A DNA stretch of 64,000 bases. It comes from an uncultured Actinomycetes bacterium. GTDB taxonomy: Bacteria; Actinomycetota; Actinomycetes; Nanopelagicales; Nanopelagicaceae. Below, in pieces: positions 52,048 to 59,831 of the stretch (within the stretch, counting starts at the first letter, position 1; each line of letters begins with the position of its first letter). A program made the position numbers and the translations under genes. The stretch covers positions 1 through 64,000 of the forward strand of contig CAIJOY010000015.1 in assembly GCA_903822425.1 (NCBI GenBank), written 5' to 3'. A model generated the notes under the pieces. That model saw nothing but the letters and a program-made list of their open reading frames with translations. It was not told the origin of the DNA and did not search any database.

Positions 52048-52830
52048 ATGCGCATCGAGGAATTATTGGTACCCGTGCTCTTCACGATAGCCGGCATAAT
52101 TGTTCTCTACGCGGAGGACGAAATCCACTTTGACCGTTTGAAAACCTACCCTGATAAAACTCATGTACGCGAACGTCTTGCAAAGATCGGCCGCGAAAAT
52201 GAATACGAATCCTTTCGGATAAAGCAGCTCATCAAGTCAATAATTGTCTTTTTTCTGACTTTTCTCTTTTTACTTGTACTCCTTCGAAGCCTACTTCCAA
52301 CATTATTGTTGGCGCTCATGAGCTCGGTAGCTGCATATTTCTATGTTGATCAACAACTAACTAAGGATGTAAGGAAATATCGTGCTGCAATTGAGAGTCA
52401 GTTTCCGGCAATTATTGAAATGTTGACCTTAGCGTTATCTGCTGGAGAAACACCGGTGAGCGCGATGACGCGGATTGCACAACGTTCACATGGTTCACTC
52501 GCCAACGAACTCAAAACAGTAATCAACAGCGTCAGGAGTGGGGCTCCATTTCATGTCGCACTAGATGCCTTAGGCAGGAGAGTGGAATCGGTAGTGATAC
52601 GGCGTTTTGTGGATGCACTCATCACCGCCATGTTGCGAGGAGCGCCACTTATTGATGTATTGCAACGTCACGCAGCAGAAGCCAGGCAGATTCAGCGAAA
52701 TCACTTGATGGATAAAGCGGGGAAAGCGGAAATTTCCATGATGATTCCTGTTGTATTTTTAATCTTGCCGGTATCAATCCTGTTTGCACTATGGCCCTCA
52801 TTAACACACCTCAACATATTTGCGGCCTAG
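52048..52830 (+). CDS. tadC: TadC-like inner-membrane platform protein
   Basis: About 260 residues from ATG 52048; the open frame reaches back to 51835 inside tadB. A membrane segment near the N-terminus, a hydrophobic pair around residues 70-105 and two C-terminal helices surround the T2SF core FPAIIEMLTLALSAGETPVSAM and VVIRRFVDALITAMLRGAPLIDVL. It is the second platform subunit of a Tad system. No pilin, prepilin peptidase or TadZ follows; the next gene is convergent putA, overlapping by 20 bases. Confidence 0.8.
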   Translation: MRIEELLVPVLFTIAGIIVLYAEDEIHFDRLKTYPDKTHVRERLAKIGRENEYESFRIKQLIKSIIVFFLTFLFLLVLLRSLLPTLLLALMSSVAAYFYVDQQLTKDVRKYRAAIESQFPAIIEMLTLALSAGETPVSAMTRIAQRSHGSLANELKTVINSVRSGAPFHVALDALGRRVESVVIRRFVDALITAMLRGAPLIDVLQRHAAEARQIQRNHLMDKAGKAEISMMIPVVFLILPVSILFALWPSLTHLNIFAA

Positions 52831-55800
52831 GCCCTGCTCCTATATTCCCGTAACGGTGATTGGTAATTGAGACGCTTTGTTCCAATAGCCAGCGTGGTCC
52901 TTCAACATCTCCACGAGCAGCAAGTGGGCGTTTGTCTGTGGAGATACCTTGATTGAGAAGTTCAAGGGTTGGCGCAATTTCCGATGAGAGCCAACGGACT
53001 TTATCTACATCAAATTTGGTTGCAAGTAATTCTGGAATACTTTCTACCGCCGCTTCAGGAGTTGAGGCGATGGGAGTTGGAGAACTGAACTGCACGGATG
53101 TCTTGCTTTCTTGTGCCACCCATTTAATGTAAATAAGGGATTCTTGCGAGAGCGTTTCATCAATGCGTACAAGAATTCCCTTTTTTGATGGCAGATAGCG
53201 CTGGTAGTTTCGTTCAACACTTAGCCCTGCAGGATCAATGGCTTTGCATCCAATCTCTTTCCACCATGTGGAAGATTGTGCGATGGTTTGTATCGATGAG
53301 GTCAGCGGGTTCCAACTGCGAAGGTTGTTGAGGTAGTTGGGACCACCTGCTTTAGATGTTGGACCAACGCTGCTGCGTTTCCACCCACCAAATGGTTGAC
53401 GATTCACAATTGCTCCGGTGGTACCGCGATTGACGTAGAGATTCCCAGCTTGTACTTGCGAGATCCAAAGTTCGCACTCGCCTTCATCTAATGAATGAAT
53501 TCCTGCAGTCAAACCGTAATCCACTTCGTTTTGCCATGTGATGGCGGTATGAAGATCGGGTGATTGCATTATGCCTAGCACTGGACCAAACCACTCAGTG
53601 CGATGACTCCATGAACCGGATTTGATTCCTAACTTCACACCAGGTGACCAGAGATATCCATTGCTATCTAGTTGCTGGGGTTTTACTAACCAACTCTCAC
53701 CGTCATCTAAAGTTGTGAGTGCCCGCAGCAAAGCACCAAGAGGTGGATGGATTATTGGTCCCATGGTTGTTGCGTAATCGGAACCAGCACCGACACTCAA
53801 ACTCTTTACAGCATCTTCTAGTTGTCGCAAGAAAGAAGGATTGTTGTAGATGCTCTTATCGATAATTCCTAAACTGGCAGCGCTGCATTTTTGTCCTCCA
53901 TGGCCAAATGATGATTGAACAAGATCTTTGACGGCACTATCGATATCAGCGCTAGCAGAAACGATGATTGAGTTTTTGCCACTTGTTTCAGCCATCAAGT
54001 GGATATTTGGTTGCCAGCCTGTAAACATTGCGGCAGTATCGAATGCGCCCGTGAGTATGACTGCATCGATTGCTGCATGAGTTACAAGGTGGCGACCTAC
54101 TTCATCATCGCGAGTTGAAACAAATTGAAGAACCTTTCTTGGTACCCCAGCTTTCCATAATTGTTGGGCGATCTTCCATGCTGTGGCAACTGTTTCTGGG
54201 GCAGATTTAAGAATGACTGTATTACCAGCGGCTAGCGCAGAACAAACTCCACCGACGGCAATGGCATAAGGAAAATTCCAAGGCGGAACGATCAAGACCG
54301 TCCCTAGGGCAGTTGAACCATTTTCTTTTTCTCGAGCAGACAGGGCGTAGAAACGTGCAAAATCTATTGCTTCACTTACTTCTGGATCTGCTTCAGCAAC
54401 GCTCTTGCCAGCATCGCGTGCCATCGTTGCGATTGTTTCTGCTCGCTCGGCTTGCATCATCACTGCAGCGCGTTCCAAAATTTCTCCTCGTGAAATTGCA
54501 CCTAATTTTTCCCATGCATCTTGTTCTCTATTAGCGCTTTCGACTGCTGCATCTATTTGCTCCATATCGGCGACGCTGTAGTGATACCAAAGTGCCCCAC
54601 CCCTGCCTGGGTCTAAACCAGGCTCAGTGTGCTGAGAATGAATTTCAAGTCCGTCGATTACGAGTGGGATGCGAAGGTCAGAAATTCCTTCAAGGTGAGC
54701 TCTGGCGCTATCGAGTTCATTTCTAAATATTGGGCTTGTTGAATCACCATCAGCTTCATTCTCAAATATTCCTTTTAAGTAGGAATCATGGCAATCATCA
54801 CGCTTAAGCAAATGCCGTCGAGAGTTCGTTGATACATGATGACGCTCTGTTACTGATTTTAAGAAACGGCTTTTTTGTTCCAAGAACTTCTCATTACCCA
54901 ACTTCATTTCAAATGAGGCACGCAGGTAGTTCTCCGTAGAAGTATTTTCATCTAACCGGCGAACTAGATAAGCAACAGCAGCAGGGAAATCATCGTGCCG
55001 TGTTACCGGGGTATAGAGCAATACATTTCCGGTTTTGCTGACGACGGCGAGTGCCTCAGCATTTGCCATCCCCTCCAACATTTCAATGTCTAGTTGTGCG
55101 CTGACCCCTCGAGCTTGAGCAACTTCAATAGCGAATGCAAGATGAAAAAGATTGTGGCTGGCGATTCCGATGCGGACCGCCTCGGCATGATCTGGACGAA
55201 GAGCGGCATCGATCAATCGCACATAGCTGGCATCCACATCAGATTTGCTTGCATATGGCGCAGCGATCCAGCCATGAAGTTCTGCTTCAGCTTTCTCCAT
55301 TGCCAAGTTTGCGCCTTTTACCAAGCGAATCTTAATTTGGCCACCACCGGATTCTTTTCGCAGTTTTGCCCAGTGAACCAAATCGGCAAAGACGGAATGC
55401 GATTCTGGGAGGTAGGCCTGCAGAACAATTCCTGCATCCATCTTCATAAACTTTTCTTCTGTTAGTAGCTGCTTAAAAACAGCAACAGTGATCTCTAGAT
55501 CGCGAAATTCTTCCATATCCAAATTAATGAAGGTTTTATTGATAAGAGCCTGCGAATATAAAGTCCGTAATCTTGTTGCTACACGTTCAACAGAGCCATC
55601 AAGGTCGACTGTGATCAATTGGCTGGCGATGGAGGAAATCTTCACAGATGCATAATTAACTTCTGGACGCTGAACCATTTCAATGACCGATGCAAGTCGC
55701 TCTTGCGCTTCATGATCTCCAAGGACTGCTTCACCTAGGACGTTAATATTTAATCGTGCATGATCGTTATCTCGATTTTTTATATGCCGGGCCAGCAGCG

Positions 55801-56200
55801 GTTTTTCTGCCGGCAAAATGATTCCGGTAGCAGCCATGCGTACTCGAGCATGAACAACTTTCATCACAAGAGATGGAAATATATGTGAAATGAGACTAAT
55901 AACTTTCAGTCCTACAAAATCTATAAATCCTAAACCTGAGACTGAAGCACTTCGCGAAACTTTGCGCAAAGTGCGTGCTGCACTGGGCATTGAACTCATG
56001 CGCATTACTTCATCCGTTAAGGACATAGTTAATGCGATAGCTGCTGGATCCCTGAGTAAGCGCGCAAAACGTTTGCGGTTTGCTTCATCATGCCTAGAGC
56101 GTTTCTTGTCAGAATTACTGAGAAGTTCGGCAACTGATGCAATAGCGTTTTGAGTGAGTTGATCAACATCACTGCGAGTTTCAAACGGTTGAGATTGCAT
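52811..56200 (-). CDS. putA: Bifunctional proline dehydrogenase/L-glutamate gamma-semialdehyde dehydrogenase
   Basis: About 1129 residues from ATG 56200, with GAGGGG upstream. The N-terminal proline dehydrogenase barrel (residues 80-440) has LARHIKNRDNDHARLNINVLGEA and IRLVKGANLAMEKAEAE. The aldehyde dehydrogenase half has VPPWNFPYAIAVGGVCSALAAGN, the Lys-containing VILTGAFDTAA, and catalytic Cys in FGHGGQKCSAAS. It takes proline to glutamate with electrons entering the quinone pool. No DNA-binding domain is present, so it does not autoregulate like E. coli PutA. Overlaps tadC by 20 bases at the 3' end. Confidence 0.94.
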   Translation of the reverse strand: MQSQPFETRSDVDQLTQNAIASVAELLSNSDKKRSRHDEANRKRFARLLRDPAAIALTMSLTDEVMRMSSMPSAARTLRKVSRSASVSGLGFIDFVGLKVISLISHIFPSLVMKVVHARVRMAATGIILPAEKPLLARHIKNRDNDHARLNINVLGEAVLGDHEAQERLASVIEMVQRPEVNYASVKISSIASQLITVDLDGSVERVATRLRTLYSQALINKTFINLDMEEFRDLEITVAVFKQLLTEEKFMKMDAGIVLQAYLPESHSVFADLVHWAKLRKESGGGQIKIRLVKGANLAMEKAEAELHGWIAAPYASKSDVDASYVRLIDAALRPDHAEAVRIGIASHNLFHLAFAIEVAQARGVSAQLDIEMLEGMANAEALAVVSKTGNVLLYTPVTRHDDFPAAVAYLVRRLDENTSTENYLRASFEMKLGNEKFLEQKSRFLKSVTERHHVSTNSRRHLLKRDDCHDSYLKGIFENEADGDSTSPIFRNELDSARAHLEGISDLRIPLVIDGLEIHSQHTEPGLDPGRGGALWYHYSVADMEQIDAAVESANREQDAWEKLGAISRGEILERAAVMMQAERAETIATMARDAGKSVAEADPEVSEAIDFARFYALSAREKENGSTALGTVLIVPPWNFPYAIAVGGVCSALAAGNTVILKSAPETVATAWKIAQQLWKAGVPRKVLQFVSTRDDEVGRHLVTHAAIDAVILTGAFDTAAMFTGWQPNIHLMAETSGKNSIIVSASADIDSAVKDLVQSSFGHGGQKCSAASLGIIDKSIYNNPSFLRQLEDAVKSLSVGAGSDYATTMGPIIHPPLGALLRALTTLDDGESWLVKPQQLDSNGYLWSPGVKLGIKSGSWSHRTEWFGPVLGIMQSPDLHTAITWQNEVDYGLTAGIHSLDEGECELWISQVQAGNLYVNRGTTGAIVNRQPFGGWKRSSVGPTSKAGGPNYLNNLRSWNPLTSSIQTIAQSSTWWKEIGCKAIDPAGLSVERNYQRYLPSKKGILVRIDETLSQESLIYIKWVAQESKTSVQFSSPTPIASTPEAAVESIPELLATKFDVDKVRWLSSEIAPTLELLNQGISTDKRPLAARGDVEGPRWLLEQSVSITNHRYGNIGAGPRPQIC

Positions 56201-56254
56201 CACGTCCCCTCATTTCGTGCTCATCATAGGGAGTAAGAACCTTGCTGTGTACTG

Positions 56255-56929
56255 CTAGAGAAGGATTGCCAAAGTGGCCATCAACACAATGGTGAAAGGC
56301 AAGGACTGCATAATCCCTTTGAGTGTTGCCACCGTGGCATCAGCCCCAGAGCGCTTTTGATTGAATGCACCAAGAACCGAAGCAATAACCGGATAAGTGG
56401 AGAGCGCACCTGAAACTCTTGCTCCCAATAACGAGGCAAGCCCTGTGAGAGAAAGAATAACAATTAACGTAACAGCGATTCGAGCTGGCAACTCCCAACG
56501 AGGAGGACTTATGAGGCGGTTCTGTTTTGAATATTGTGGCCAAAATTTCGTTACGAGATACCAGGTGATCAAAAGTGACGGCAATAGAAAAATAAGTGGT
56601 ATTTCAAAACTTGTTAAGAACGCCCCTGTAGCAATGCAGGCAATCGTTCCTGTTGAAAGCGCTTGATACCAATTAAGTTTGAGAGCTGTGATGGCATACG
56701 TCCAAGCAAAAACCATCAGTGCCACTTGTCCTACTAAAACACCATGTGCTGCACGCGCGGCAAAGGCACTTCCTTCTTGTAAATATATGATGAAGATAAA
56801 GGGGCCAGTTGTTAAAGGAAGGCCAATTAAGAGACCACCAATGCGATCACCCCAGCGTCTTTGGATAAAACTTACTAGGGCAACAAATATTGGCGCTAAG
56901 AAAAGTTTTAGTGCCAACAGTGATGTCAC
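56255..56929 (-). CDS. Membrane protein with internal duplication, coupled to the racemase gene
   Basis: 224 residues, starting at GTG 56929 one base after the racemase gene's stop, so translation is coupled. About seven hydrophobic helices are predicted. Residues 26-67 (beginning WGDRIGGLLIGLPLTTGP) and 168-209 (beginning LGARVSGALSTYPVIASV) align as a repeat with shared G-x-R-[IV]-x-G, a Pro and a spaced G-x-x-A pattern, consistent with a duplicated transporter fold. Uncharacterised membrane proteins of this type are widespread in bacteria, from memory. A role in moving an amino acid or acyl-amino acid is inferred from context only. Confidence 0.7.
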   Translation of the reverse strand: MTSLLALKLFLAPIFVALVSFIQRRWGDRIGGLLIGLPLTTGPFIFIIYLQEGSAFAARAAHGVLVGQVALMVFAWTYAITALKLNWYQALSTGTIACIATGAFLTSFEIPLIFLLPSLLITWYLVTKFWPQYSKQNRLISPPRWELPARIAVTLIVILSLTGLASLLGARVSGALSTYPVIASVLGAFNQKRSGADATVATLKGIMQSLPFTIVLMATLAILL

Positions 56930-56930
56930 G

Positions 56931-58040
56931 TTAGGAAGCCAGGATTACTTTCTTTGCACTCGTAATTTCATCGACGAAATCCAAATCAATATCGACACCA
57001 ATTCCTGGGCCTGTTGGAACTGTGAGTCTGCCATCAACCATTACAAATGGATTGGTGATGTCGCGAGTAAAGAAGCGAGATGAAGCACTTGTATCCCCAG
57101 GCAGCGTGAATCCAGGCAAAGATGCCAGTGCAACGTTCGCAGCTCGTCCAATACCTGTTTCAATCATTCCGCCACACCAAACTGGAATGTCATTTTCAAC
57201 GCACAAGTCATGAATTTTTACTGACTCAAGATATCCGCCAACACGACCAGGTTTGATGTTAATGACTGTCGTCGCTTTCAATGCAAGGGCATCACGTGCA
57301 GATTCAAAGGAGGTAATCGATTCATCGAGACAAATAGGGGTATCAACTTCTGCGGCCAGCATGGCATGACCTAAGACGTCATGTTCATCAAGAGGTTGCT
57401 CTATAAGCAGCAAGTTAAATGGATCTAATTTCTTAAGCAACCCAAAATCATCCCGAGAAAAGGCTTGATTGGCATCAACTTGTAGCGGGATATTGGGCCA
57501 GAGTCCCCGAATAACGCTTACTGGTTCAATGTTCCAACCGTGTTCAATCTTCAACTTAATTCTGCGATAGCCGTCGGAGACGTATTGAGAGACTTCTTCA
57601 ACGAGTGCATCAATACTTGGGGCAATTCCAACAGAAACTCCACAATCAATTTCTTTCTTTGAGGAACCCAAATATGAAGCAAATGATTTTCCTTCAAGTT
57701 TAAGTTGTGCATCCAAGATTGCTGTTTCCAGAGTTGATTTCGCCATTTGATGCCCAAGGATGGGACGGAACAGCCCAGCAAGGTCTTCAGCACGGACATC
57801 TCCTGCAGCAAATAGGCGAGGAAGCAAGAACCGTTCTATGACATCTTGAGCGCCCGACATGTATTCGGGAGAGTAGAGCGGTTCGATCATCGCAACACAT
57901 TCGGCCCAACCATCAACACCTTCATGCGTTGAGACTTTCATAAGAAGGAGGTCTCGGTTGTATTCAATTCCGAAAGATGTACGAAAAGGGCGAACAAGTG
58001 GAAGTTGCAGAATTCGTAGCTCCACGCTTTTGATCTTCAT
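56931..58040 (-). CDS. Enolase-superfamily o-succinylbenzoate synthase/N-succinylamino acid racemase
   Basis: 369 residues. The MLE-type barrel carries the KxK pair in RRIKLKIEHG near residue 165, the metal ligands in VDANQAF, LIEQPL and ICLDESI, and the second Lys in INIKPGRVGG. Family members are either MenC of menaquinone synthesis or NSAR, which racemises N-succinylamino acids, and some do both. The adjacent GNAT acyltransferase gene (15 bases upstream) is the signature of the D- to L-amino acid conversion pathway described in Geobacillus. No other men genes are near, favouring NSAR. Confidence 0.82.
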   Translation of the reverse strand: MKIKSVELRILQLPLVRPFRTSFGIEYNRDLLLMKVSTHEGVDGWAECVAMIEPLYSPEYMSGAQDVIERFLLPRLFAAGDVRAEDLAGLFRPILGHQMAKSTLETAILDAQLKLEGKSFASYLGSSKKEIDCGVSVGIAPSIDALVEEVSQYVSDGYRRIKLKIEHGWNIEPVSVIRGLWPNIPLQVDANQAFSRDDFGLLKKLDPFNLLLIEQPLDEHDVLGHAMLAAEVDTPICLDESITSFESARDALALKATTVINIKPGRVGGYLESVKIHDLCVENDIPVWCGGMIETGIGRAANVALASLPGFTLPGDTSASSRFFTRDITNPFVMVDGRLTVPTGPGIGVDIDLDFVDEITSAKKVILAS

Positions 58041-58055
58041 AAGTGTTGCCCTTTC

Positions 58056-58823
58056 TTATTTCGTTGAAGTACTAGATTGAGTGACAATGTACGCGCCATC
58101 TTCAGTAAATCCCGTAATCTGCCATCCAGCGCTGAGCCTTGGGTGTAGTTGAGCGCGAAGGGCGTATCTCCATTGGCTCGCAAGTGCTGCATCATCAGTT
58201 CGCAGCGCGATGATGTCTTCAGGTAAGTAGCAAAGAACACTTGTTCCAGAGACTTCCCGTTGTACGGGTGCCCCACTTACATTTGCAAGAGCGACGGGAA
58301 TTGCCTCACCACTAATAGTTGGGGACCAATCTTTTGAGATTTCCCAATGAGCAATAACGCGGTCAGTTGGGTCATTAGCATTGAGAGCATCTGGCATTTC
58401 ACCGTAAAAGTCAGGGAAGTAGTCATAGATTCTTACCCCAAGTCTGACAATATTTAATTTAGCATTTCGGCGAACGAGTGGGTCAAATGTCCAGGTGATG
58501 GTTTGATACCCGCGCGCTAGCGCCCACTCCCTCTGATGCAATTTCAATTCTCTGCCAATATTGAGGTTTCGGAATTTCTCCTTGACTGCAGCCATGTGCG
58601 AATGCAAATGCAAGTGTTTGTTTTCATCGACTCCAGGAAAAGCTAATGCGGCAGCGACTATTTCACCATCGACAAATGCACCAGCAATGTATGCGCCATT
58701 GTGAACTAAGGCTTGAAGTAAATTGGAAGTGACTTGAGTTTCATCACTGGGCCAGACTTCATTAAAGAGTTCGCGAGCTAAGTCTTGCTCGGCAAGCCCT
58801 GTGAGGACTCGAACGGTGGCCAT
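58056..58823 (-). CDS. GNAT acyltransferase, probable D-amino acid N-succinyltransferase partner of NSAR
   Basis: 255 residues. The GNAT core is visible in HLHSHMAAVKEKFRNLNIGRELKLHQREWAL, where the R-x-x-x-I-G-x-x-L segment is the acyl-CoA pyrophosphate loop, followed by ITWTFDPLVRRNAKLNIVRLGVRIYDYFPDFYG, a block that I associate with the GNAT proteins encoded beside N-succinylamino acid racemases. The C-terminal 100 residues are not part of the core. It is upstream of the racemase gene on the same strand. TAGGCT (58830-58835) ends six bases before the ATG. The donor and acceptor are inferred. Confidence 0.75.
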   Translation of the reverse strand: MATVRVLTGLAEQDLARELFNEVWPSDETQVTSNLLQALVHNGAYIAGAFVDGEIVAAALAFPGVDENKHLHLHSHMAAVKEKFRNLNIGRELKLHQREWALARGYQTITWTFDPLVRRNAKLNIVRLGVRIYDYFPDFYGEMPDALNANDPTDRVIAHWEISKDWSPTISGEAIPVALANVSGAPVQREVSGTSVLCYLPEDIIALRTDDAALASQWRYALRAQLHPRLSAGWQITGFTEDGAYIVTQSSTSTK

Positions 58824-58829
58824 GGAGTC

Positions 58830-58873
58830 AGCCTAGAACATAGGACGACAATTGATGTCGGGGGACCTAGGCT
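58830..58873. promoter_or_regulatory. Divergent TAGGCT -10 boxes for the GNAT and quinone oxidoreductase genes
   Basis: TAGGCT on the minus strand (58830-58835) ends six bases before ATG 58823, and TAGGCT on the plus strand (58868-58873) ends seven bases before ATG 58881. Both genes appear to have leaderless mRNAs. Confidence 0.55.
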
Positions 58874-58880
58874 ATTAAGC

Positions 58881-59831
58881 ATGAAAGCAATAAAAGTTTC
58901 TGAATTCGGCGGCCCCGACGTCATGAAGTTGGTGGATTTACCTGATCCCACCCCGGGTGAGAACGAGGAACTGATTAACATCACCTCCATAGGTGTCAAT
59001 TATGCAGACACACATCAGATTGAAAATAGTTATCGAGTGCCACAAACACTTCCGCTTTATCCAGGTCTGGAAGTTGTTGGAACGACTTTGAGTGGTCGCC
59101 GAGTTTTAGCTTCTGTTGGGCACGGTGCCTACGCACAAAAAGCTATAGCAAATAGAAACCTGATCATTGATATTCCAGCAGGAGTTTCAGATGAACAAGC
59201 CCTGGCCATGTTGGTGCAAGGAACAACCGCTTGGCATATCTTGAAAACAGTTGGCCACCTACAGGCAGGTGAATGTGTTGTGATTCATGCAGCAGCAGGT
59301 GGAGTTGGCTGTCTTGCTATTCAATTAGCAAAAATGTGGGGTGCCAAAGTCATTGCTGTCACATCATCTGGAACTAAAAAAGATTTAACGTTCTCACTTG
59401 GGGCGGATCAATGGGTAGATGCCAATTCAGAAGACTTACAAGGCGACATTCGCGCAGCTAACGATGGCAAGCGCCCAGAATTGATTTTAGAGATGGTGGG
59501 CGGGAAAACTTTTGATGATTCACTTGCTATCTTGGCTCCGTTTGGTCGCCTCGTCACATTTGGAATGGCATCACGTAAGCCTCCGACGCTTGTGCAACCA
59601 GCCACTCTCATAGGTGGAACAAAGACGATTGCCGGGTTTTGGTTGGGTAATTGTTTTAATAATAAGGAATTTCTCAATGATGTGATTGTCGAACTTTTTG
59701 CGTTGATTGTTGCCGGCAAACTCACACCTGTAGTCGGACCTATTTTTCCTTTGACTCAGGCGGCCCAGGCGCACAGAGCAATCGTTGCTCGCGAAACAAC
59801 AGGAAAAGTGACCTTGAATCCAGCGTTGTAA
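58881..59831 (+). CDS. Zinc-independent quinone oxidoreductase (MDR superfamily)
   Basis: 316 residues from ATG 58881; the longer open frame begins in the divergent gene's promoter. IGVNYADTHQIENSYRVPQTLPLYPGLEVVG replaces the zinc-ligand region of alcohol dehydrogenases and is typical of QOR-type MDR proteins. The cofactor site is HAAAGGVGCLAIQLAKMWGAKVIA, the AAxGGVG motif of NADPH-preferring members. It reduces quinones or enones. Its promoter faces the GNAT gene. The physiological substrate is unknown. Confidence 0.87.
   Translation: MKAIKVSEFGGPDVMKLVDLPDPTPGENEELINITSIGVNYADTHQIENSYRVPQTLPLYPGLEVVGTTLSGRRVLASVGHGAYAQKAIANRNLIIDIPAGVSDEQALAMLVQGTTAWHILKTVGHLQAGECVVIHAAAGGVGCLAIQLAKMWGAKVIAVTSSGTKKDLTFSLGADQWVDANSEDLQGDIRAANDGKRPELILEMVGGKTFDDSLAILAPFGRLVTFGMASRKPPTLVQPATLIGGTKTIAGFWLGNCFNNKEFLNDVIVELFALIVAGKLTPVVGPIFPLTQAAQAHRAIVARETTGKVTLNPAL

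Follow-up and report, generated by a model that had tools for sequence, protein, structure and literature searches.

A predicted N-succinyl-dependent D- to L-amino acid conversion gene set and its coupled, duplicated membrane protein in a Nanopelagicaceae genome

Results

Gene arrangement

The window analysed here, a stretch of 64,000 nucleotides (GCA_903822425.1, contig CAIJOY010000015.1, positions 1 to 64,000), comes from contig 15 in the draft genome (1.43 Mb, 98% complete) of an uncultured actinobacterium of the family Nanopelagicaceae. Three genes follow each other on the minus strand, all of them at the place where the initial annotation, made from the sequence alone, had put a set of acyltransferase, racemase and membrane protein. 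The first is a GNAT N-acyltransferase gene (58056-58823, 255 aa), identified as an open reading frame with a PF00583 domain, the second encodes an N-succinylamino acid racemase of the NSAR/OSBS subfamily (56931-58040, 369 aa; NSAR in the following), recognized by the family profile TIGR01928, a match to the structure 1SJA and its active-site residues, and the third, with a GTG start codon, encodes a membrane protein of 224 aa (56255-56929; MEM in the following) for which comparison with Pfam, NCBIfam and PDB sequences gave nothing over the cut-off. The stop codon TAA of the racemase gene occupies positions 56933-56931 and the start codon of MEM positions 56929-56927, with 56930 as the single spacer base, in agreement with the one-base distance given originally.

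A conserved fourth neighbour was absent from that three-gene set. A gene for a PutA-type proline dehydrogenase/P5C dehydrogenase (52811-56203, minus strand, 1130 aa; PF01619 E 1.2e-58, PF00171 E 4.2e-99) lies 51 bases downstream of MEM on the same strand, and putA is the same-strand downstream neighbour in most genomes of the window's genus; PutA is considered here as a conserved neighbour of the pathway genes. In some genomes of the genus, an inserted PTS-type cassette, which consists of an EIIA gene on the opposite strand and two further genes, separates PutA from MEM or NSAR. Upstream, the divergent zinc-type quinone oxidoreductase-like gene (58785-59831, plus strand) overlaps the GNAT start as its open reading frame is listed, with a likely ATG at 58882; it is kept as the flank of the cluster within the genus and is not thought to be part of it.

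The racemase and its acyltransferase partner

Judged by its sequence, the racemase belongs to the canonical N-succinylamino acid racemases, with its activity predicted. It passes the enolase-fold family profile TIGR01928 with 312.6 bits (cut-off 200.65) and matches the Amycolatopsis enzyme 1SJA over residues 1-364 (phmmer E 1.7e-132), with 57% identity over 363 aligned residues. The KxK/Lys active site read in the initial annotation is present as K162/K164 and K263 together with the three metal ligands D189, E214 and D239, all of them invariant across 30 aligned NSAR sequences. Position 266 is an arginine in 30/30 of these sequences and a proline in the dedicated MenC; arginine at this position is reported to favour NSAR over OSBS activity. 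With the Amycolatopsis NSAR/OSBS enzyme (PDB 1SJA-1SJD, 4A6G, 5FJO), the window racemase shares, besides the overall identity, the active site, R266, I293 and F323, while its own relatives mostly carry Leu 293 and Tyr 323. As a separate observation, one genome (G009; L130, L126) contains two NSAR genes, the second of which is 69% identical to that of the window, is located beside a short TauE-like gene and could derive from contamination of the assembly.

The GNAT protein carries an ordinary GNAT domain (PF00583, E 8.5e-8) with no closer family name, and comparison with PDB sequences gave no match. Its gene adjoins NSAR in the window genome and in nearly all NSAR-bearing relatives examined, which include the window's genus, some nine further genera of the same family and members of other families in the class; the exceptions are G047, where the two genes are ~12 kb apart, and G052, where they are found on different contigs. 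Chiefly on account of this constancy beside the racemase, we infer that the protein is a succinyl-CoA:D-amino acid N-succinyltransferase, and its use as a marker of the N-succinyl-mediated D- to L-amino acid route in the initial annotation is supported.

A separate menC

NSAR/OSBS enzymes are promiscuous and commonly retain o-succinylbenzoate synthase (OSBS) activity, the PDB relatives of the window racemase carry both names, and OSBS is also the NCBIfam name of TIGR01928, the profile over whose cut-off the enzyme scores. That the enzyme serves menaquinone synthesis as OSBS is nevertheless very improbable. On contig 47, menA, menE, menB, menC, menD, the isochorismate synthase gene and menG are grouped together, with menC between menB and menD and its product at 361.7 bits against NF002782 (curated cut-off 288), while no men gene adjoins the window racemase, which has a constant GNAT partner and keeps R266. 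As this men cluster is complete and includes a menC, the window enzyme is rejected as the MenC of the cell and NSAR is free for another role. The finding that, according to the initial annotation, would speak against its proposal, a full menaquinone operon in a genome lacking any other menC, is thus not what the genome shows.

A candidate desuccinylase and relocation of the gene pair

The absence of a desuccinylase, as annotated initially, holds for the window, but not for the genome, where one of three M20 genes, located on contig 47 (G000:C47:48571-49668), is a strong candidate. Its product is 48-54% identical to M20 counterparts within the family and 43-46% identical to those outside, and among solved structures its closest relative is carboxypeptidase G2, followed at a weaker level by DapE, a kinship that fits a putative N-acyl-amino acid hydrolase. 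The search in related genomes for an M20-type desuccinylase, suggested along with the original proposal, found the counterpart divergently beside GNAT in the genera g5, g8 and g14; in the families f12 and f20 it adjoins GNAT or NSAR, and in f17 it adjoins GNAT.

The order in g5, g8 and g14 is M20, the GNAT-NSAR pair on the opposite strand and a Helicase_C_3 gene, while the M20 and Helicase_C_3 genes abut, with no pair between them, in the window genome and in almost every other genome of the family that was checked (L008, L132). As the pair sits exactly between these two genes in the former genera and the genes abut here, the simplest interpretation is a departure of GNAT-NSAR from the M20/helicase site; probably the pair was ancestrally located beside M20 and moved in the window's genus to a site upstream of putA. 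M20 is nearly universal within the family, so that its co-occurrence with NSAR there is not decisive for function, and it is kept in the NSAR-lacking members G023, G025, G026, G028, G031, G035 and G036. This retention indicates that its role is not the pathway alone: either M20 has another role or it outlives the pathway.

An internally repeated membrane protein related to DUF3147

The initial annotation had described MEM as repeating itself (residues 26-67 and 168-209). This register, with an offset of 142, is confirmed, weakly by direct comparison of the halves (hhalign P 0.026-0.039, score 16.4-16.7, with 20 column shuffles reaching at most 14.1) and conclusively through DUF3147. The N-terminal half aligns to DUF3147-type proteins with P 3e-8 over 100 columns and the C-terminal half to the same columns in the same register with P 6e-4 to 1e-3 over 64 columns (both hhalign); it is this alignment of both halves in one register that makes the internal repeat convincing. 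MEM itself scores 11.3 bits against DUF3147 (PF11345), under the Pfam cut-off of 23.6, and the N-terminal half of its best relative 23.1 bits; the C-terminal half alone gives no match to DUF3147 by hmmscan, its relation being visible only in profile-profile comparison.

DUF3147, a half-size membrane family, occurs as two adjacent genes in 2/4 actinobacterial genomes where it was found (L189, L190). In both tandem pairs, the upstream partner has its lysine and arginine residues after the first helix and the downstream partner has them clustered N-terminally, which is suggestive of a dual-topology partner pair. The halves of MEM (about residues 4-103 and 145-208) show the same opposed pattern, and on the basis of the two tandem pairs and of charge counting MEM would be a fused antiparallel DUF3147-like pair, that is an inverted repeat. 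MEM differs from DUF3147 in being fused into a single chain, in its shortened second half and in the greater length of its linker region.

The AlphaFold2 model of MEM (pLDDT 81.4, pTM 0.81, with residues 160-180 least certain) has the order helix, broken helix, helix, then two further helices, then again helix, broken helix, helix, the broken helices being located at residues 28-52 and 170-194. Foldseek found no match to the model at E<=0.001. VIA-align placed the NCX_Mj/CAX cation exchangers on top with Z 6.0-6.2 over ~150-170 residues, values that common helical arrangements also reach. These exchangers are built as inverted repeats with broken helices; the helix breaks of MEM (LPLTT and LSTY) contain no acidic residue. 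A Z of 6.2 is too weak for assigning MEM to the NCX/CAX exchangers by fold, and no sequence match to them was found.

Linkage of MEM to the racemase

Among 201 genomes of the family, 68 possess NSAR, 47 MEM and 36 both, with the two genes linked in 26. Co-occurrence exceeds expectation in the family (odds ratio 12, Fisher p 5e-12) and also outside the window's genus (odds ratio 7.5, p 2e-6), both statistics ignoring shared ancestry. In the window's genus, MEM directly follows NSAR in 16/21 genomes, the two genes being spaced or overlapping by no more than about 14 bases; four of the remaining five lack MEM and one has only a distant copy elsewhere. In a second genus, g7, MEM is located within 2 kb of NSAR in ten sampled genomes, and wherever the locus was read in detail an alpha/beta hydrolase gene of opposite orientation separates the two, with outer flanks unlike those in the window's genus. 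In the NSAR tree, the window's genus and g7 stand apart with moderate support, and a single clade of all linked MEMs is weakly rejected (tree test, AU p 0.033), which allows for two linkage events.

On the other hand, 32/68 NSAR-bearing genomes lack MEM and ten possess an unlinked copy, while MEM occurs without NSAR in 11 genomes. The conserved linkage of membrane protein and racemase on which the initial proposal depended is seen in the two genera and not in the NSAR-bearing family as a whole. As many racemase-bearing relatives are without MEM and several MEMs are located elsewhere, MEM is an accessory and not an essential part. Unlinked MEMs follow hflX or stand beside unrelated genes. In L184-L186, MEM relatives end an operon resembling miaB-miaA-dapF-hflX, and in L186 the relative is also next to proline-racemase-like and DapA-like genes, all these gene names coming from reading of the sequences. 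An anecdotal parallel is presented by G021 (L102), a genome without MEM, where the genes immediately after NSAR, on its strand, encode two MFS transporters.

Discussion

The reading that GNAT, NSAR and M20 together constitute a succinyl-dependent irreversible pathway from D- to L-amino acids, with activities and substrate predicted from homology and gene context, is the best one and is held with reasonable confidence; the conversion proposed in the initial annotation is well supported by the gene context. The GNAT protein would convert a D-amino acid and succinyl-CoA to the N-succinyl-D-amino acid, NSAR would interconvert N-succinyl-D- and N-succinyl-L-amino acid, and the putative L-specific M20 hydrolase encoded on contig 47 would release the L-amino acid and succinate. 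Such a pathway, consisting of a GNAT N-succinyltransferase, NSAR and an L-desuccinylase, was reportedly described in Geobacillus kaustophilus by Sakai et al. in 2006. The locus resembles the G. kaustophilus system in an NSAR with all catalytic residues, an adjacent GNAT gene and an amidohydrolase tied to them by synteny in related genera, and differs from it in the non-adjacent gene of the desuccinylase candidate, the extra coupled membrane protein and PutA as the next neighbour. For the synthesis of L-amino acids, NSAR of G. kaustophilus has been combined with an L-succinylase from that species (PMC7431475), so that the chemistry is established in relatives.

The promiscuity of NSARs for N-substituents (PMC7431475), together with the adjoining membrane protein and proline catabolism by PutA, might also point to salvage or detoxification of other N-acyl-amino acids (acetyl, formyl, carbamoyl) taken from the environment instead of D-amino acids succinylated internally. 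The conserved GNAT partner, which implies acylation inside the cell, makes this rather improbable.

What MEM contributes is more difficult to judge. Most plausibly, it would be a transporter and move a small molecule of the pathway across the membrane, either the D-amino acid inward or the N-succinyl-amino acid. This role, suggested already in the initial annotation, is plausible for an inverted-repeat membrane protein, while the proposed comparison with known transporters gave no match in sequence or fold; with topology and role both deduced, the assignment is tentative. Roughly equal to it stands the reading that GNAT-NSAR, with or without M20, forms the D- to L-amino acid pathway and MEM is a hitchhiker of unrelated general function on a shared transcript, which is likewise conceivable without being favoured. 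MEM is missing from many NSAR genomes and present elsewhere, for example at the end of the miaB-miaA-dapF-hflX operon, PutA or PTS genes also follow downstream in the same direction, and genes are often closely spaced where genomes are small and streamlined, all of which would fit a chance passenger. Linkage of MEM and NSAR in two genera with different outer flanks and the tight coupling within the window's genus argue against it, as does the weak rejection of one clade of linked MEMs, which would fit two linkage events. The compound claim, that MEM serves the pathway as its dedicated transporter and is at the same time the first protein to which a role could be assigned in an unrecognised membrane family, one that arose by fusion of a tandem antiparallel DUF3147-like pair, is more doubtful than the transporter role by itself and would have to be called unlikely.

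The enzymes belong to a known pathway and are ordinary; to these come the probable relocation of the gene pair and a coupled membrane partner of undescribed form. A literature search found no paper on DUF3147 or on D-amino acids in Nanopelagicales, and for the gene context of NSAR it found reviews only.

In natural waters, D-amino acids derived from cell walls are a considerable reservoir of dissolved nitrogen. Leftovers of this kind are what small freshwater actinobacteria would be expected to feed on, and succinyl-based salvage, with its clear genetic basis, would be a testable explanation of how they do so. With respect to the membrane protein, its halves, the tandem DUF3147 gene pairs and the fused form together resemble the outcome of a fusion between dual-topology partners, and the MEM family may offer a way into DUF3147, a membrane family of unknown function, for which the link to NSAR suggests first substrates.
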